64,000 nucleotides of DNA, taken from the NCBI RefSeq assembly GCF_012027305.1, contig NZ_SNUF01000002.1, positions 1 to 64,000 of the forward strand. Direction: 5' to 3'. How positions within the stretch are numbered: the stretch's first letter is position 1; every line of letters starts with the position of its first letter. Below the pieces are notes generated by a model that was not told the origin of the DNA, did no database searches, and worked only from the letters and a program-made list of their open reading frames with translations. Origin of the DNA: Thermococcus sp. MAR1 (GTDB lineage: Archaea > Methanobacteriota_B > Thermococci > Thermococcales > Thermococcaceae). A program made the position numbers and the translations under genes. Shown piece by piece: positions 3,267 to 44,977 of the stretch.

Positions 3267-3307
3267 GTTTTTAACGATTTCTTCAAACTCTCATATGGGG
3301 AGTGAGA

Positions 3308-3508
3308 ATGGGAACAAAGATAGTCGCTGTTTATGAGAATGGCGTTTTAAGGCCCAAGAACAGGCTTAATCTTCCAGCCGGTACTGAGGTTGAGCTGGTA
3401 ATCCTGCCCTCATTAAAAGGACTCATGAAGCTCTTCGAAGAAGTGAACGTCAAGGAAGAGGTGGGAAGTGCCCTCAAAGATGCCAGGGAGAGGAAATTAT
3501 GGGAGTAG
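3308..3508 (+). CDS. antitoxin, AF2212/DUF104 family (VapB-like)
   Basis: A 66-residue protein with the family start TKIVAVYENGVLRPKNRLNLPAGTEVELVI, a small beta fold typical of AF2212-type antitoxins. I take the ATG at 3308 over the GTG at 3302 because GGGG AGTG lies just upstream. A TATA-like TTTTTAA (about 3268-3277) gives the pair its own promoter. Its last 10 bp overlap the toxin gene, the usual arrangement for vapBC. Confidence 0.85.
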   Translation: MGTKIVAVYENGVLRPKNRLNLPAGTEVELVILPSLKGLMKLFEEVNVKEEVGSALKDARERKLWE

Positions 3509-3975
3509 TTCTAGATTCATCGGTTGTCCTCAAGGCACTCCTACCTCCTCCCAGAAATCTCAAAGAGGAGATACTCAAAAGGGAGCTTGAAACCCACGAG
3601 AAGTGCCGGTTCATACTAGAGACGATAGAAGAGGAGAGGATTGAAACGCACTCACCAGCTGTAATCGTTGTTGAAGTAGCTGGGGTCATCAGAAGGATCA
3701 CTGGAGACGAATACAGAGCATCGATTGCCAGTGACACTATCAAGAACAACTTCATACTTCACTATGATGGGGAGATCCTGGAAAAAGCTAGAGAGGTCGC
3801 CACTCTTACTGGAGCTTCTGGATTTGATGCGTATTTTATAGCCACGGCACGTCTTTTGGGCCTTCCACTGATAACCGACGACAAAGGAATGTATCTCAGG
3901 GCCAAAGAATTAGGCATAGACTCCCTCTTGGTGCGGGAGAACTCCATCAAAGAGATAGAACTCGCCCTCGGGTGA
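3499..3975 (+). CDS. PIN-domain ribonuclease toxin (VapC-like)
   Basis: The 158-residue PIN protein is a likely RNA endonuclease toxin. Acidic metal-binding positions are visible: D6 in VVLDSS, an acid in VVEVAGVI, D in SGFDAYFIA and D in ITDDKGM. The start overlaps the end of the antitoxin gene. The methyltransferase gene begins 5 bp downstream and might be co-transcribed by read-through. The cellular RNA target cannot be told from sequence. Confidence 0.88.
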   Translation: MGVVLDSSVVLKALLPPPRNLKEEILKRELETHEKCRFILETIEEERIETHSPAVIVVEVAGVIRRITGDEYRASIASDTIKNNFILHYDGEILEKAREVATLTGASGFDAYFIATARLLGLPLITDDKGMYLRAKELGIDSLLVRENSIKEIELALG

Positions 3976-3979
3976 TACC

Positions 3980-4840
3980 GTGGAGACTCTGTATTTTCTA
4001 ACCGCGAGAGACGCGAGAAGACTGCTCTTCGCGAAGGGCGGGGCGAGGCTCAACCTCGACCTTAGAAAAACAAACCGTTCATGGCTCATAACGCTTGAGG
4101 GAGACGAGTTCATCTTTCCCGACGGAACGCGGGTTGGGAGGGACGTCATCGAGAGGATCGCGAGGGACGAGGGGAGCGTTTACTTCGTGAGAGGGGGTGG
4201 GGTTTACAAAGCCGCCATCGCTGGAGAGGGCTTCTACAAGCTCGTGCCAACGATTCCACCGACGATTGAGATAAACGGCATCAGAATGCACAGGACGAAG
4301 GAAGTGAACCCCCTCCAGGACACAAGGAACAAGGTGAACGCGGTGAAGCCAAAGGAGGGCGAAACAGTCTTAGATACCTGCATGGGGCTCGGCTACACGG
4401 CGATAGAAGCCTCAAAGAGAGGAGCGTACGTCATAACCATCGAGAAAGACCCGAACGTGATTCAGCTTGCCAGAATAAACCCCTGGAGCAGGGAGCTCTT
4501 CACCGGCGGTAAAATCCAGGTGATTCAGGGTGACGCCTTCGAGGTTGTAAAGAAGTTCAACGATGAGAGCTTCGATGTGGTTATCCATGACCCGCCGCGC
4601 TTTTCTTTAGCGGGCCAGCTTTATTCGGAGGAGTTCTATCGCGAGCTGTTCAGGGTTCTTAAACCCGGAGGAAGGCTCTTCCACTACGTGGGGAATCCAG
4701 GAAAGAAATACCGGGGAAAGGACCTTCAGAAGGGCGTCATGGAGAGGCTGAGGAGGGTCGGCTTCGTCGGGGTTAAGCGCGTTGAGGAAGCACTTGGCGT
4801 CGTGGGGAGAAAACCCGAAAAGGGAAGAGGGAAGGATTAA
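3980..4840 (+). CDS. SAM-dependent methyltransferase (COG2521-like)
   Basis: The 286-residue protein has an N-terminal domain of about 110 residues and then a Rossmann methyltransferase domain: motif I TVLDTCMGLGYTAIEAS, an acidic IEKDPN loop, and the catalytic-type motif HDPPRF. This DPPR form is known from an uncharacterised archaeal group (COG2521), with nucleic acid as the likely substrate. The start is GTG at 3980 with GGTGAT 4 bases before it. The last 4 bases overlap the convergent gene. Confidence 0.82.
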   Translation: METLYFLTARDARRLLFAKGGARLNLDLRKTNRSWLITLEGDEFIFPDGTRVGRDVIERIARDEGSVYFVRGGGVYKAAIAGEGFYKLVPTIPPTIEINGIRMHRTKEVNPLQDTRNKVNAVKPKEGETVLDTCMGLGYTAIEASKRGAYVITIEKDPNVIQLARINPWSRELFTGGKIQVIQGDAFEVVKKFNDESFDVVIHDPPRFSLAGQLYSEEFYRELFRVLKPGGRLFHYVGNPGKKYRGKDLQKGVMERLRRVGFVGVKRVEEALGVVGRKPEKGRGKD

Positions 4841-6237
4841 ATCCCTCCAACTTCTTCCATCTCCTCAAAGGCTTCCAGGTTCGTGTAGTAGTCCATGAGC
4901 TCAGAGATTTCCTTTCTAAGCTTGAAGCTCTTGGCTATCGCTATTCCAAAGCCTATTATCGACGGCCAGGCCAGGAGGAGCAGCAGCTTGGCGTCGCTTA
5001 TCGGTATGGCCCTTGGCTCAGTGAAGCGGTTGAAGTTCCATATCATAAAGGCTATCATCAGCCAGGCCGTCGAGAAGTTGGTAAGCCCACTGCCGCTTTC
5101 TCCGAGCTTGAAGCCAGGAACGACGTCCTTCGTGAGGGGCGGGAGCAGGTTGCTTCCCATGAAGCCGAGCTGGTCCTCGAAGACGTGGAGCCACTGGCCG
5201 AGCATCGAAGCGAGTGCCAACTCCGTCGCGTGCTCGTAGCCAATCAGCTTGAAGAAAGCAAAAACGGCCAGGCCTATTACCACACCCATCGTGAGGGAGT
5301 GGCTGAAGCCGTGGTGCCAGGGCAAAAAGCGGTCCTTGACGACGGTTTTTCCCTTGAACTCCGCTTTCCTAAAGGCTATCTCCGGGCCAGAGAAGGAGTC
5401 TATCCTGGTGGGCTTGGGGTAGGTCTTGATGAAAGGCACACTCACTTTCGCTATCCCGTACTTCCTGTACTCGGGGACGTCGCCGCCTATCGCGACCCCT
5501 CCTGGCGTTACTATCGGACCCATTTCCACCCTGACCTCCCGCTTGGGCGGGTCTAGGTGAACCATGAAGCGCCTGTAAACGTCGCCGGGAAGGCGGATGT
5601 TGTGTATCTTGACTATCCTCTCGCCCTCGCTGTATGCTTCTTCGATGGCCTTCGCTATGGTGTCCGCTATGCCCTGAGGGTGGGGAGCGTCGCTGACGAC
5701 GAGCTTGAGCGAGCCGTCCTCATCGATATCGATGTAACCGAAGACGAGCATCTCCTTTCCTTCCTCGATTTTTCCGAACTCCTCCTCGAAGAACTCGTAG
5801 TCATCACCGAAGGCCTCAACGGTTATCTTTCCGGTTCCGTCGTTGAGCGTGAAGACTATGCTGTTGTAGCTCTCCGTTACCGTCTCCTCGCTTCCGTCCT
5901 CGCGGAGAACTTTGTAGGAGACCTTCCCGGAGCCCCTCGCCAGTATCTCCTCCACCGTTCCCTCAATGGCAAAGAACTGGTAGCGGTTTTCCTTGCTCAG
6001 CTCGCTGATTTTGACGAGTTTAGGCGCGTAGTGCTTCTTCTCGTCCCAGGGAGCTGGATCAATCTCGTAGTCCCTTCTAGCCAGGAACTTTCCGAACTTG
6101 AAGTCCACGAAGTCGGGGAAGTAAGCGGCAGCGGCCGCTATGACCGGAATGAGTATGCCCAGCCTTAGATCACCGACGAGCGCTCCAAAGAAGGTCGCCG
6201 CGGCCAAACCGGAGATGTAGTGGGTGAATCCCCTCAT
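4837..6237 (-). CDS. membrane metal-dependent hydrolase (DUF457/YdjM-like) with inserted OB-fold
   Basis: The 466-residue protein starts like the YdjM/DUF457 membrane hydrolases (MRGFTHYISGLAAATFFGALVG, then YFPDFVDFKF) and resumes that family near residue 310 (WHHGFSHSLTMG, WLHVFEDQLG), where the histidines and acids probably bind metal. Between the two parts are about 240 soluble residues with an OB-fold pattern (FFAIEGTVEEIL, FTLNDGTGKITVEAF, MLVFGYIDI). It is last in an operon with a TctA-like permease and a ten-OB protein, and the inserted OB links it to the latter. GGTGAT precedes the start. The substrate is unknown. Confidence 0.75.
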   Translation of the reverse strand: MRGFTHYISGLAAATFFGALVGDLRLGILIPVIAAAAAYFPDFVDFKFGKFLARRDYEIDPAPWDEKKHYAPKLVKISELSKENRYQFFAIEGTVEEILARGSGKVSYKVLREDGSEETVTESYNSIVFTLNDGTGKITVEAFGDDYEFFEEEFGKIEEGKEMLVFGYIDIDEDGSLKLVVSDAPHPQGIADTIAKAIEEAYSEGERIVKIHNIRLPGDVYRRFMVHLDPPKREVRVEMGPIVTPGGVAIGGDVPEYRKYGIAKVSVPFIKTYPKPTRIDSFSGPEIAFRKAEFKGKTVVKDRFLPWHHGFSHSLTMGVVIGLAVFAFFKLIGYEHATELALASMLGQWLHVFEDQLGFMGSNLLPPLTKDVVPGFKLGESGSGLTNFSTAWLMIAFMIWNFNRFTEPRAIPISDAKLLLLLAWPSIIGFGIAIAKSFKLRKEISELMDYYTNLEAFEEMEEVGGI

Positions 6238-6243
6238 CTTCCA

Positions 6244-7566
6244 TCACCCCAGTCCGAGCAGGGACATGAAGTAGCCTGTGTGGCCCGTCATGCTGATGAG
6301 CACGGGCAGGATAAGTCCGCCGAGGCAGTAGCTCCTCCTGGTGTTGAAGGCAGCCGCCATCATTCCTATCGCCGTCGAGACGAAAAGCACCGCCAGTCCC
6401 ATCGGTCCGGTGAGGAGGTAGCTTATCACCACTAGCGTCACCGCCACCACGTAGGAGAGCTTCTTGATGTGGACGACGTTGAAGCTCCTGGCTATGAACC
6501 TGGAGAGGTAGTAGGTGAAGAGGAAGCTTATGCCCGCGCTGAGCAGTACAACACCCACCGCGGCGAGGTACTCGGAGTAGCTCTTGGGGGTGTAGATTGA
6601 GCTGACGAGCCAGGCAGCCGCTCCCCTCGTGAGCCTCAGGTTGGGCAGGAAGAGGAGGGTAAACGCTCCCACGTAGTAGATGACCCTGTTCACACCCTGG
6701 CTTATGATGAACGCATCGTCCCCGCGCTGGCTCGTCATGTGGCCCGCAACGAGCGCGCCCATTCCGCCGGTGATTATTGGATAGACCGCCGCTATGGTTC
6801 CACCGAGGGCGCCGCCGAAGCTGGCCTTGAGGGTGTTGTAGAGGCTGCTCTCGACCCTGTCATCTGTCTTTTGCTCCAGCATCGGCGGGTTGGAGAGGAT
6901 GTTGAGTATCACCCAGGACATTCCGAAGAAGCCTATGAACATCGGAGTTAAGCGGGTGTAGGCGCTGGTTGTGGGAAGCAGGTTGGTGTTCATGACTATG
7001 AAGCCCAGTATTCCTGACAGGAAGAAGACGAATATCCCGCCGAGTATCTGCCTCCAGGCCAGCCAGAGCCTCTCCCCCGGAGTTCTTCCCCTATCACCTT
7101 CCTTGGGCCACTCGCTCATGAACATGAAGACCACTATGGCGACGAGGAAGTAGGTGATGTAAGGGCTGGTTGCCTGGTAGATCGGCGGGAGAACCTTCGG
7201 GAAGATGAAGAGCAGACCGAGCACGAGGAAGAGCGTTCCCGCTACCGCTCCGATGAGGTAGAGGAGCACAGCTTCGTGGCCCCTGCCGAGGAGGAGGTAG
7301 CGCTGTGTGGGGAATAGGAGGAAGACGGCGCTCTCGTCGGCAACGCTGAAGTAGACGCTGGAAATGGCACTCACGTAGGCGTAGGCAACTATGGCGCCGA
7401 TGGCGAAGAAGGGAAAGGCCTTGACCGGCATCAGCTCGCCAACGCCGAAGACTGCAACAAGTAGGGCCATTATGTTGAATATGTGGAAGCCCGGGATCCA
7501 TGAGATGAGCGCTCCGAAGAGCACCCCTGCGAGGGACCAGATTAAAAGGTCTGAAAGGGGAAGCAT
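6244..7566 (-). CDS. TctA-family membrane permease
   Basis: About 440 residues with many membrane spans. The start (LIWSLAGVLFGALISWIPGFHIFNIMALL) and the internal PMLEQKTDDRVESSLYNTLKASFGGALGGTIAAVYPIITGGMGA match the tripartite tricarboxylate transporter large subunit family (TctA). No TctB or TctC genes are nearby, so a normal tripartite transporter is not implied. I chose the ATG at 7566 because GAGGTGAT lies 4 bases upstream; 7572 is also possible. It sits between two OB-fold-containing genes in one operon. Confidence 0.8.
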   Translation of the reverse strand: MLPLSDLLIWSLAGVLFGALISWIPGFHIFNIMALLVAVFGVGELMPVKAFPFFAIGAIVAYAYVSAISSVYFSVADESAVFLLFPTQRYLLLGRGHEAVLLYLIGAVAGTLFLVLGLLFIFPKVLPPIYQATSPYITYFLVAIVVFMFMSEWPKEGDRGRTPGERLWLAWRQILGGIFVFFLSGILGFIVMNTNLLPTTSAYTRLTPMFIGFFGMSWVILNILSNPPMLEQKTDDRVESSLYNTLKASFGGALGGTIAAVYPIITGGMGALVAGHMTSQRGDDAFIISQGVNRVIYYVGAFTLLFLPNLRLTRGAAAWLVSSIYTPKSYSEYLAAVGVVLLSAGISFLFTYYLSRFIARSFNVVHIKKLSYVVAVTLVVISYLLTGPMGLAVLFVSTAIGMMAAAFNTRRSYCLGGLILPVLISMTGHTGYFMSLLGLG

Positions 7567-7571
7567 GGCCA

Positions 7572-10541
7572 TCACCTCACCTCAATGCAGTCGCTCCTGT
7601 AAGGAATGACCTCAACGGTTCCCTTGTACTCGGCAACATAACCTGCAATCCTGACCGTCTGACCCTCGCTGAAGGTGAGCTGGGCCACGCTCTTGGGTAT
7701 AAAGACCACCAGCTCCCCACTTCCATCATCTATCGTCAGCTTGATGAAGCTCTTTCCGGTGTAGACATCTTTGATGGTTCCCTCAACGACCACGGTCGTT
7801 CCGAGGAGGTCGAGGGTAACGTCGCCCGTCTTCAGCTTTTCTGCAGGGACAGCTCTAACGACGGTTATGGAAACGACCTCTCCAGAGTCAGCGTCGTAGG
7901 TTATCCTCAGCTCGCTTCCGGTTCCGGCCTCTCTTGGATCCGGAAGGAGCTCTCTCGAAACCCTCAGCTCAGCGCTTCCGGTGTCGTCGTGAACCTTCAT
8001 GACGTAGCCATTGTCGTAGCTCAGCCCGTCCCAGGTGACGGTGAGGTTCACCCTTCCGGTAGCTTTAGAGAGCTCAGAGACCTTCACCTCTCCGATTCCC
8101 GCGGTTCCTCCGGAGGGCTTCTCAAGTTTAATCGCATCGAAGTCGTAGACGATGATTTCAGGTTTTCCGTTGTACTCGTCCACGTAGCCCGCTATGAGGA
8201 GTCTCTGGCCCTTCTCAACGCTCAGGTTTGCTCCCCCAGGTATGAAGACCGCTATCCCACCGCTTCCGTCATCCAGGGTCAGCTTGAGGTTCTTGCCGAT
8301 GACCCTCACTTCTGTTACGGTGCCGTTGAGGGCAACGGTCCTGCCCTTCATCGAGAGGCTCACCGAGCCGGTCTTGAGGATAGACGAGGGCTTAGCCTTG
8401 GTGACGTTCAGCGCGGTTATCCTGCCGGAGAGCGGGTCTGCTATAAGCTTGAGCGTGCTACCAGTCCCTGCTTTAAGCGGGTTAGGCAACAGCGAACGCT
8501 CGGCAAGCAGGGTTGCGCTTCCGGTGGAGTCGTGGAAGGTCAGGGCGTAGTCGGGCTTCTGGTAGGCAATCGAGTCCCAGGTGACCGTCAGGAGGAGGGG
8601 TTCCATTGCTGTCTTCAGGTCTGAGACGGTGCCCTCAACCGGCCCGGCCTGCTGGAGCTTCTCAATTGCGGCCGGGTTGAAGAGCACCACCTCCGGCTCG
8701 TCGCGGTAGATTTCAACGTATCCTCCAATCTGCACCATGTCCCCCTCGGCCGGGACGTAGGTCAGCTCGCTGGCCGTAGAGCGGGGCACGAAGACCGGAA
8801 GGTTGCCGACGACTATCTTGAGGTTGCCGCTGAGGTTGGCCACGTCCGTGACCTTGCCGATTACCGCGACCAGCTCGCCTTCCATCTCCGCGGTGACCTC
8901 TTCGGGCTTGAGCGGAATTGGAGCTACCGGCACCTCAACGGTGAGGTTCTCTCCCTTCACGAGGTTATCCCCGGCCACCAGGCCCCTGATGACGACCTGA
9001 CTTCCGGTTCCAGCCTCGAGCGGGTTGAGGTTCAATAAAGCTTCTCTCGGGAGCGAGGCCTTAACCCCGTCCACGGTGAGGTAGTAGGTGCCGTTGGTGT
9101 AGGTCACCCCCTCAAGGGAGCCGGCGAAATCGACGAGCTGGCCCTCGTAATCGGCCAGTTCTTCAGCCGTGACCTTCGGGAGCTCTATCTCCTCCGGCGG
9201 GAGCGGCTCTCCGAGGGCCCTTATTCCCTCTCCGGTGTAAACGACCACCTCAAGCTTTCCGCGGTACTCCTCGAGGTAGCCGGCGACCTCGACTCCGAGG
9301 CCGACCTTAAGCTGAGCCATCGTCTCGTTGGAGAGCTCCGCGAGGGTAGCTGACGGAACGAAGACGTCCAGCCTTCCCGTTCCGTCGTCGATGACGAGCT
9401 TGAGGTTCGAGCCTATTCTATCGACCTCCTCGATGTTGCCCTTTACCGCGACTATCGAGCCGCGCATGTCGGGGGTTAGGACGCCGATCGGCCTGAACTC
9501 CGTCTTAACCGCCTTGACAACCTCAAGGTAGGCCGCAACGAGCCTGCCATCTGAGCCCATTCTTCCCGCGACTTTAACCGTACTCTCGCCCGATGCGTTG
9601 AATGGGTTTAAGCCAGCGAGAACGTCCCTCGGGACGAGGGCGTCGAGGTAGTTCCCACCGTCGGTAATGGTCAGCACGTAGCGGCCGTTCTCGTAGGATA
9701 TTCCAGCTATGGATCCCTCGACGGCCATGACCATTCCCGGGTAGCGTGGTGCCTCGCCTATCGGGACTACGGGTGCTTCCTCGATCGGAGTCACGGAGAG
9801 CTGGCTAAGATTCCTGACAACTATCTCCGGCGAGGTGCCCTTGTAGAGGTAGACGATTCCCGGGGCGTAAACCGTATCTCCGACCTTGACGGAGAGGTTG
9901 TTGAAGACGAGCAGAACCCTCGGAACGAGCACCGAAACCTGAGAATCACCAGTATCAACCGTCAAAAGATAGCCGGAGCTGACGTTGGAGAACTTAGTTA
10001 CTATCCCCTCGACGGCCACGTAAGTGTTGCTCATGTTGACGTTGAGCGACTTGACGAGGGACGGTTTTTCGGAGTGGAGCTTCGAGCGGAAGTGAAGGCC
10101 ACCGAGGTACTGGAGCATCGAGTAGGTATAGGTCTCCCTCACGCGGAGCTGAACCTCGGCCGTCACCTCGTCGCCGGGGAATGGGACAAGGCCTTTTCTT
10201 ATCATCTCATCGGCAAGGGGAGAGTATACTCTGATGTCTATCTGTCCCGTTCCGTCGTCCACAGTGAAGGTGAGGCCGAGCTTTCCGCCGGTCTGGGAGA
10301 CGTAGGGAACCGTGATGACGGTTCCGTTTATCCTCACCACGGCGTAGTTCATCAGGTAGTTGCCGTAGACGTCGCTCACTCTGACGAGCGGTGCCTGGGC
10401 GCTCTGGGCTGCGACGAGCAGAAGGGCAACGCCGATGACCGAGAGTAGAATCGACAGGTATTTAAGCTTTGAAACGTCGAGCCTCTTCTGCTCCTTCAGG
10501 CCATGATAGTAGAGTTTTTTCTCACCCTCCTTCCCTGACAT
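7572..10541 (-). CDS. large surface protein with about ten OB-fold-like modules
   Basis: A 989-residue protein with one N-terminal membrane helix (about residues 28-46) and a long extracellular part. I count about ten modules of 70-90 residues, each showing VxGxVxxV ... LxIDDGTGxLxVFVP ... GxxVxIAGYVxEYxGxxEVVV, the OB-fold pattern. From the third on, two versions tend to alternate: one with DDGTG and EYxGxxE, and one with a GTGS linker. GGAGGT precedes the start. It is the first gene of the operon. OB folds bind nucleic acid or oligosaccharide, and the ligand is unknown. Confidence 0.8.
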   Translation of the reverse strand: MSGKEGEKKLYYHGLKEQKRLDVSKLKYLSILLSVIGVALLLVAAQSAQAPLVRVSDVYGNYLMNYAVVRINGTVITVPYVSQTGGKLGLTFTVDDGTGQIDIRVYSPLADEMIRKGLVPFPGDEVTAEVQLRVRETYTYSMLQYLGGLHFRSKLHSEKPSLVKSLNVNMSNTYVAVEGIVTKFSNVSSGYLLTVDTGDSQVSVLVPRVLLVFNNLSVKVGDTVYAPGIVYLYKGTSPEIVVRNLSQLSVTPIEEAPVVPIGEAPRYPGMVMAVEGSIAGISYENGRYVLTITDGGNYLDALVPRDVLAGLNPFNASGESTVKVAGRMGSDGRLVAAYLEVVKAVKTEFRPIGVLTPDMRGSIVAVKGNIEEVDRIGSNLKLVIDDGTGRLDVFVPSATLAELSNETMAQLKVGLGVEVAGYLEEYRGKLEVVVYTGEGIRALGEPLPPEEIELPKVTAEELADYEGQLVDFAGSLEGVTYTNGTYYLTVDGVKASLPREALLNLNPLEAGTGSQVVIRGLVAGDNLVKGENLTVEVPVAPIPLKPEEVTAEMEGELVAVIGKVTDVANLSGNLKIVVGNLPVFVPRSTASELTYVPAEGDMVQIGGYVEIYRDEPEVVLFNPAAIEKLQQAGPVEGTVSDLKTAMEPLLLTVTWDSIAYQKPDYALTFHDSTGSATLLAERSLLPNPLKAGTGSTLKLIADPLSGRITALNVTKAKPSSILKTGSVSLSMKGRTVALNGTVTEVRVIGKNLKLTLDDGSGGIAVFIPGGANLSVEKGQRLLIAGYVDEYNGKPEIIVYDFDAIKLEKPSGGTAGIGEVKVSELSKATGRVNLTVTWDGLSYDNGYVMKVHDDTGSAELRVSRELLPDPREAGTGSELRITYDADSGEVVSITVVRAVPAEKLKTGDVTLDLLGTTVVVEGTIKDVYTGKSFIKLTIDDGSGELVVFIPKSVAQLTFSEGQTVRIAGYVAEYKGTVEVIPYRSDCIEVR

Positions 10542-10697
10542 GAGCAGACCTCCGGTTTATTTGACGTAGCAACTCAGTTGATGGATGCTCTTTTTAACGC
10601 TTTCGTGTCAAAACGGGACAGGAGTAACCAGGTTTGAATAAGGTGGAACGTTACAACTGGGGAAAATAATTTAAGGCCCTCCCTCCGAGAAAGGGTC

Positions 10698-11395
10698 ATG
10701 AGGACGATAATCATCACCGACTGGAAGAGACATATACTCCACCCCCTGCTCGTTGCTTCAGCCAGCAGAGCGCTTCACCGGGGCAATCTTGGGGCCTTTG
10801 AAGCCGTTGCGGCGGCCTTCGAGAGGAACTACTTCTTCGAAAGGGTAGTGAAGATGCCAGCGGACTGCTTCGGAAAGTACCTCGGAGAGAGCATTCTGCT
10901 CGGCGTTCAGGCCGGGTTCAGCCGCCTCGATGAGCTCCTGCCCGAGGCGGAGGGGGAGGGAGTTAGGATAGTTGAGGTAGCGAGAGGTGGGTTCCGTTCT
11001 ACACCGCCGCAAGGCTCTACGCGGACGGAAAGCCCGTGCCGGCAGAGATCCTCAGACACCTCCCGAACCCGGAGCACCTGCCAAGAGACGGGGACTACCT
11101 CAGGTTCCTGGTGAAGCTCATAGAGCACAACCACCGCTTTGGCATAGTCAGCTGCGCCTTTGAGTTCTGGACGATGAGAGAGGCCCTCTCGCGGAAGCTG
11201 TGGATGCCGGAAGGGCCGAAAACCTGGAGAGGCAGGGGCTGTTTCGTGGGGGTCACGAGAGGAAAGGGGGACATCAACGACGTCAGGGGCGAGCTGAAGC
11301 TGTTCTGCCGGAACGGGTGGTGCCTCTTCTACCTCAGGGGAAGCGAAAAGAGGCTGAAAGAAAAGCTCAAAGAGAGGGGCCTCAGCTTTCCTTGA
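10698..11395 (+). pseudogene. conserved hypothetical gene, frameshifted near 10985
   Basis: Two overlapping frames look like one protein of about 232 residues. The first runs from the ATG at 10698 to VEVARG, then turns into a low-quality tail ending at 11114. The second frame takes up the protein with WVPFYTAARLYADGKP and ends at 11395. Adding one G in AGAGGTGGG (about 10985-10990) restores a continuous frame. I do not recognise the family; there is no signal peptide or membrane segment. This may be a real mutation or a sequencing error. Confidence 0.65.
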
Positions 11396-44443: not shown

Positions 44444-44977
44444 ATGCCAAACTACGACGTTCACCTCCTGAGCGGCATAGTTACCTATCCGCTCACCGTG
44501 TTTATCGCGTTCATAATCCGGGACTACGTGGGAATCCCCTTTGTCCTCAGTACGGCGGCGATGGTCATAGGCTACGCTCTCTACGTCCTTGGCAGCGATC
44601 TGCCGGACATGGATCATCCCAACGCACTGATACACCGCGGGACGAAGCCGATAGTGGCGGTGGCTGTCGGGAGCGCGGTATTCATTCAGAGCGTTGACTC
44701 CGTGCACCTCGGCGAATCCTGGCTCAATATCACAGCGGCTTGGGGAATCGGGGCGCTGACCGCTCTCGTGGCCTGGTTCGCCTTCACATGGATTATGCCA
44801 AGACACAGGGGAATAGTCCACTCACTACTCTTTGCGGCAGTGTACGGCCTCCTGGGCTACGCTCTCGTTGAGTTCGGTCTCGGAATGAGTACGGGGGAGG
44901 CCCTCTTCGTCGGTTTCGCGGCCTTCTGCGGCTATACCCTTCACCTGCTCCTCGACGGGGAGCTATCACTGCTGTAG
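44444..44977 (+). CDS. membrane metal-dependent hydrolase (YdjM/DUF457 family)
   Basis: 177 residues, about five helices, with DLPDMDHPNALIHRG, MPRHRGIVHSLLFA and YTLHLLLDGE, the histidine/aspartate pattern of YdjM-type hydrolases. It is related to the ends of the 4837-6237 protein but has no OB insert. It starts 6 bp after the AAA gene with GTGATAGTCC upstream, so the two are probably co-transcribed. Confidence 0.82.
   Translation: MPNYDVHLLSGIVTYPLTVFIAFIIRDYVGIPFVLSTAAMVIGYALYVLGSDLPDMDHPNALIHRGTKPIVAVAVGSAVFIQSVDSVHLGESWLNITAAWGIGALTALVAWFAFTWIMPRHRGIVHSLLFAAVYGLLGYALVEFGLGMSTGEALFVGFAAFCGYTLHLLLDGELSLL

Follow-up and report, generated by a model that had tools for sequence, protein, structure and literature searches.

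What would a surface protein built of ten oligonucleotide/oligosaccharide-binding (OB) modules, a TctA-like permease and a predicted membrane hydrolase do together? Here we examine a three-gene operon that encodes such proteins (minus strand, 10541-4837) in a window of 64,000 nt from Thermococcus sp. MAR1 (GCF_012027305.1, contig NZ_SNUF01000002.1, positions 1-64,000). The module formed by an OB protein and a neighbouring archaeal TctA is widespread; the operon is newly recognised here as a variant of it, which we call system B, and its YdjM-type gene as a newly recognised third component. A shorter pair, in which the OB protein lies directly upstream of TctA, is referred to as system A. As to function, we see about even chances that system B is a paralogue of the OB-TctA module that takes up nucleic acid, with YdjM as its hydrolytic third component.

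The link between this module and DNA comes from methanogens. In Methanococcus maripaludis, the adjacent genes MMJJ_13020 (OB, one transmembrane (TM) segment) and MMJJ_13030 (TctA-like, 11 TM segments) were identified by a transposon screen and clean deletions; deletion of either abolishes natural transformation, complementation restores it, and the authors' candidate for the DNA transporter is MMJJ_13030 (PMC10133366). A TctA homologue is also essential for transformation in Methanoculleus thermophilus, and a secreted thermonuclease is required in M. maripaludis (PMC10133366). The operon in the window resembles the MMJJ pair in having a single-TM OB gene beside an orphan TctA-like gene, the likeness of MMJJ_13020 to the window protein being one of published description rather than of alignment (PMC10133366). 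It differs in its ten OBs, its deeply diverged TctA clade and its third gene, and a transformation role has been demonstrated only for the M. maripaludis and M. thermophilus homologues.

The pairing is by no means confined to methanogens. TctA-like genes are present in 237 of the 298 archaeal genomes sampled, which span 156 genera (116 with such a gene) and over-represent Thermococcaceae. At or near TctA, Thermococcales, Theionarchaea, Hadarchaeota, DPANN lineages and Thermoplasmata encode an OB protein that has a membrane segment at its N-terminus. The number of OBs per protein is one in DPANN and two in Hadarchaeota, rises to two or three in Theionarchaea and reaches about four in Thermococcales, the last figure being derived from protein length and profile matches; the TctA neighbourhoods examined from many other archaeal lineages contained no adjacent OB gene. 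The tRNA_anti-codon family is matched by 44 of 52 OB proteins, and PKD domains occur in three of the 52.

Several further loci carry genes of this kind. Two cyanobacterial plasmids (L236, NZ_CP112877.1; L257, NZ_CP060823.1) have an archaeal-type TctA gene directly preceded by one for a two-OB membrane protein, and on the Cylindrospermopsis plasmid a nuclease-related-domain gene follows TctA. The system A TctA gene of one methanogen (L184 6978-8227; G218, family f38) is split into two frames and intact in related genomes, which could reflect a sequencing error. An AT-rich methanogen (L194 443-1042) encodes a lipoprotein-type thermonuclease, like the transformation-required one of M. maripaludis, about 6.5 kb from TctA.

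Gene 1 of the window operon encodes a short basic N-terminus and one TM segment (residues ~26-47), followed by ten OB modules, and matches the Pfam tRNA_anti-codon OB family. The initial annotation had placed about ten OB-like modules outside the membrane, and purpose-built OB profiles indeed match all ten positions (Table 1; for the odd type, the profile derives from the odd modules of this protein and is not independent of them). Structure prediction, which that annotation had proposed as a check, returned two five-stranded OB barrels for modules 9 and 10, modelled with high confidence by AlphaFold2, and modules 1-8 are predicted from their profile matches to be OB folds as well. In all-against-all scoring, even modules 4, 6, 8 and 10 resemble one another (z 16-29) and odd ones likewise (3-5, z 24; 7-9, z 41), with odd against even mostly below z 9. 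Because of this alternation, visible from module 3 on as first noticed, growth of the array by duplication of a two-OB unit appears well supported. Among solved structures, Foldseek placed modules 9 and 10 nearest to nucleic-acid binders, namely the HIN-200 tandem OBs (4.4e-7), Teb1, Stn1-Ten1, CST and RPA, with DNA-binding tandem OBs as the best matches. TM-scores against these structures are about 0.45, probably due to a different packing of the two barrels, so the matches inform on fold and family type and not on the bound ligand. A sequence search of solved structures with the operon proteins or family profiles gave nothing useful.

Gene 2 matches Pfam TctA (PF01970) over the cut-off, and its description as an orphan TctA holds: TctC is absent from this genome and scores over its cut-off in just 1 of 115 Thermococci genomes, and no TctB was seen beside the gene. 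All 15 system B sequences in a TctA tree, from Thermococcus and from its counterparts in Aciduliprofundum-like Thermoplasmatota and Hadarchaeota, form one clade with support 100 on a stem of length 1.3, the system A copies of the same genomes falling elsewhere; the tree is a quick search with Shimodaira-Hasegawa-like approximate likelihood ratio (SH-aLRT) support only, and the TctAs of M. maripaludis and M. thermophilus are not among its rows.

Gene 3 matches YdjM (PF04307) with 44.4 bits against a curated cut-off of 29, and also Pfam OB (2.8e-6). The OB-containing membrane hydrolase proposed at the outset is borne out to the extent that the OB is an insert, seen only in Thermococcus copies. 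Residues H6, D42, D45, H212, H308, H313, H351 and D355 are invariant in 13 aligned YdjM proteins, a His/Asp set that we infer to be typical of a metal hydrolase. Gene 3 has in common with the YdjM family a multi-TM architecture and the TH, PD-D, HxxxxHS and HxxxD motifs, but system B has PDxxDF for PDxDH and carries an extra domain of about 115 residues in all copies, besides the OB insert in Thermococcus. This motif spacing also differs from the PDxDH of the other YdjM member in this genome, a gene at about 44564-44956 (+) of the window that lies beside genes for an Orc1/Cdc6-like ATPase and a thioredoxin reductase. Hydropathy and the distribution of K and R place the N-terminus, the large insert and the C-tail of gene 3 on the same side, and K and R are almost absent from the TM1-TM2 loop, so the YdjM of system B probably faces the cytoplasm. 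This makes the original suggestion that the polymer is cleaved before import doubtful.

Comparison across Thermococcus separates the two systems. System A is present in every one of the 45 Thermococcus genomes that are at least 95% complete; in the genome studied here it lies at C2, ~235.4-237.7 kb (a further locus is L032 6433-8705). It consists of a basic OB protein of about 390 aa with about four OBs and a TctA of about 376 aa, with no YdjM. System B shares with it the OB protein directly upstream of TctA, whereas system A is shorter, basic and without YdjM, and the TctAs are about 29% identical. Of the 61 genomes from the genus to which the window belongs, about 30 have system B, which is found nowhere else in Thermococcaceae. 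Neighbourhood conservation had been suggested as a check on the operon, and gene order is kept at every Thermococcus locus with a full-length B-type YdjM (29 full-length copies). Five genomes without the operon (G041, G048, G062, G075 and G089) retain decayed 3' ends of gene 3; these remnants occupy the same place in the loci inspected, which indicates that system B is being lost. The array usually has 10 modules, with 6 in G093 and a 4+6 split in G040, G054 and G076, and G042 and G051 have extra OB genes.

Beyond Thermococcus, four genomes of Aciduliprofundum-like Thermoplasmatota (family f53), four Hadarchaeota and the Thermoplasmatota family f118 share the order OB protein(s)-TctA-YdjM. System B is old. 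The YdjM proteins of these distant loci are without the OB insert and have the core and the second domain of about 115 residues, and two genomes of family f134 have YdjM without TctA. At Aciduliprofundum-type loci (L167, L226, L227), three genes together encode as many as 16 OB modules, split into about ten, two and four; the long OB protein has PKD domains, and others have N-terminal zinc ribbons.

System B additionally co-occurs in Thermococcus with a staphylococcal-nuclease-like gene (18/24 versus 4/21, Fisher p 2.8e-4), and simulation on a crude tree of a single gene gives p of about 3e-4; the test is exploratory and pools two nuclease types. The genome studied here encodes a secreted staphylococcal-nuclease-like protein of 153 aa at C2:100968-101429.

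Taken together, DNA handling by system B is plausible. The ten-OB protein, held by one N-terminal helix, would extend from the membrane and capture nucleic acid, as its fold and architecture suggest; the TctA-like protein, given that its relatives are essential for transformation, may form the membrane passage; and the YdjM-type protein, probably on the cytoplasmic side, could cut or trim the incoming strand or a nucleotide-linked product. Such a scheme keeps the initial idea of a surface OB protein that captures a polymer, for example DNA, and a TctA that passes it on: the MMJJ pair, the recurrence of the module in Archaea and the DNA-binding OB matches favour it, while the acidity of the array urges caution. 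Of the two roles that nucleic-acid uptake might serve, horizontal gene uptake would be better evidenced for the module than salvage, the evidence coming from relatives of the OB-TctA pair.

In functional terms the parallel is ComEC/Rec2, with its extracellular OB, membrane passage and hydrolytic domain; three separate proteins of system B would do this job as OB protein, membrane passage and nuclease. System B differs from ComEC in having neither the Competence domain PF03772 nor the beta-lactamase-like nuclease, in comprising three proteins and in drawing its membrane part from the TctA family. PF03772 scored over its cut-off in 0 of 115 Thermococci genomes (control detection in 10 of 14 genomes). 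DUF4131, the OB domain of ComEC (PMC5031224), weakly matches 4 of the 52 OB proteins (E 1.7e-6 to <0.01; those with a score, three in number, fall under the curated cut-off); three of the four are named B-type, and the window protein has no DUF4131 match.

A number of observations weigh against nucleic-acid uptake by system B. The OB array of system B is acidic (median of -4.7 per 100 aa, pI (isoelectric point) 4.9 here), whereas its system A counterpart in these genomes is basic (+2.5 per 100 aa, pI 9.6 here); the net-charge test thus went against the simplest DNA reading and advises caution about DNA as the ligand. In Hadarchaeota and DPANN, however, the A-type OB proteins are acidic as well. 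The window TctA is just ~27-30% identical to the system A TctAs, so the function of B may have diverged; searched against solved structures with Foldseek, its model has no credible match (best E 4.6e-3), so a DNA-wide pore is hypothetical. YdjM likewise matched no solved structure, and no assayed activity was found for it. Furthermore, system B is probably not needed for competence, because it is missing in about half of the genus and in all other Thermococcaceae genera, including naturally transformable lineages. One genome without it (G107) is, we assume, that of T. barophilus MP. Pyrococcus furiosus, a B-less member of the family, is described as naturally transformed (PMC5099854).

Other functions can be imagined for the same parts. 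Were TctA the sole permease of a carboxylate or small-molecule transporter of the tripartite tricarboxylate transporter (TTT) class, with the OB protein as a surface capture partner replacing TctC, the Pfam TctA match would be accounted for, as would the filing of arCOG04469 as a probable carboxylate transporter that maybe works without TctB/TctC (PMC5898192). System B does share the permease family PF01970 with TctABC transporters, but TctC is missing here and almost throughout Thermococci, ten tandem nucleic-acid-type OBs would be an odd device for capturing citrate, DNA transformation depends on related TctA genes and the hydrolase is a constant partner; we regard this reading as unlikely, if the least so of the alternatives. 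Next in rank, and improbable as well, comes a role in envelope maintenance or lipid processing, with a phospholipase-like YdjM, a TctA that moves a lipid or an ion and an OB array that acts as structural spacer. A phospholipase-like role has been suggested for the YdjM membrane family, and acidic repeat-built extracellular arrays can serve structurally; the kinship with transformation-essential OB-TctA pairs and the co-occurrence with a secreted nuclease would, however, be left unexplained.

The acidity, which does not speak for DNA, would be compatible with capture and uptake of a polysaccharide or other glycan, the OBs binding sugars and YdjM cleaving a glycan or a product linked to polyprenyl. 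Oligosaccharides are among the ligands that OB folds can bind, and the PKD domains found in some of the OB proteins are common in surface glycan-binding proteins, yet it is nucleic-acid OBs (tRNA_anti-codon; HIN-200, RPA, CST) that come closest in family and fold, and the surroundings of the operon showed no glycan enzyme, which leaves this possibility a shade below the envelope role in our estimate. Finally, the parts might work outwards and export DNA or RNA, given that sequence does not set direction and that Thermococcales release DNA-containing vesicles. It is import that needs the related pair in methanogens (PMC10133366), and export is the alternative to which we give least credence. 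A mobile-element or defence origin was also considered and dropped as unsupported: no relatives of the system turned up in the viral contigs and phages searched, and PADLOC profiles matched none of the three operon proteins.

The features of the operon are collected in Table 1. Its initial description as a co-translated three-gene unit at 4837-10541 was exact in its coordinates, genes 1 and 2 sharing a 4-nt overlap and genes 2 and 3 being separated by a 6-nt gap. An A/T-rich TTAAAAA, a possible TATA box by direct reading, lies about 50 nt upstream of the gene 1 start codon. The gene just upstream of the operon (10698-11395, +) is apparently frameshifted into pieces of 138 and 119 aa; it is intact in a close relative (L176 12989-13693, a 234-aa open reading frame) and has no Pfam match. 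On the other side, an AF2212-like and PIN-domain gene pair at 3302-3975 (+) is likely a VapBC-type toxin-antitoxin module.

Table 1. Coordinates of system B features in the window, with the basis of each assignment (pLDDT, predicted local distance difference test).
Feature	Position	Strand	Basis
Gene 1, ten-OB surface protein, membrane-anchored, 989 aa	7572..10541	-	Pfam OB 3e-29, module profiles, N-terminal TM by hydropathy
Gene 2, TctA-like membrane protein (system B), 443 aa, GTG start	6244..7575	-	Pfam TctA 3.2e-44; AlphaFold2 pLDDT 88.4, all-helical; B clade support 100
Gene 3, YdjM-type membrane hydrolase (predicted) with OB insert, 466 aa	4837..6237	-	Pfam YdjM 1.7e-11; invariant His/Asp set
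GGAGGT, Shine-Dalgarno-like, before gene 1	10548..10553	-	direct sequence reading
N-terminal transmembrane anchor of gene 1	10401..10466	-	hydropathy; similar N-terminal TM helices in other archaeal OB proteins
OB module 1, most divergent	10092..10391	-	OB profile match at residues 66-131, E 1e-9
OB module 2	9792..10079	-	OB profile E 2e-17
OB module 3, odd type	9507..9779	-	odd-type profile 1e-41; general OB profile 3e-9
OB module 4, even type	9207..9506	-	OB profile E 1e-17
OB module 5, odd type	8907..9206	-	odd-type profile 1e-37; general OB profile 2e-4
OB module 6, even type	8622..8906	-	OB profile E 4e-14
OB module 7, odd type	8364..8621	-	odd-type profile 1e-32; z 41 vs module 9, itself modelled
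OB module 8, even type	8082..8363	-	OB profile E 2e-21
OB module 9, odd type	7824..8066	-	AlphaFold2 pLDDT 95.6 over modules 9+10; five strands
OB module 10, even type	7575..7823	-	AlphaFold2 model of 9+10; best Foldseek matches HIN-200, Teb1, CST, RPA
OB domain inserted in gene 3, residues ~70-186	5680..6030	-	no residues opposite in any of 11 non-Thermococcus relatives
Conserved domain of gene 3, residues ~187-300 (~115 residues), common to all system B YdjM	5338..5679	-	alignment; H212 invariant

How DNA passes the archaeal membrane is a question in which ComEC is missing and a translocase is unproven. Against this background, the OB-TctA pair that came out of one methanogen screen is a module spread over much of Archaea, and many Thermococcus genomes hold two paralogous versions of it, one of which is accompanied by a constant membrane hydrolase gene. 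One genome that carries both A and B is presumably that of T. kodakarensis KOD1, a naturally transformable species with established gene deletion, in which it can be tested directly what each system does and what YdjM does. A bolder and more tentative proposal is that system B constitutes a second archaeal DNA/RNA import machine, a three-protein equivalent of ComEC with a multi-OB arm, a TctA passage and a YdjM metallo-nuclease; if this is true, YdjM proteins would be nucleic-acid enzymes and TctA-like proteins polymer translocators.

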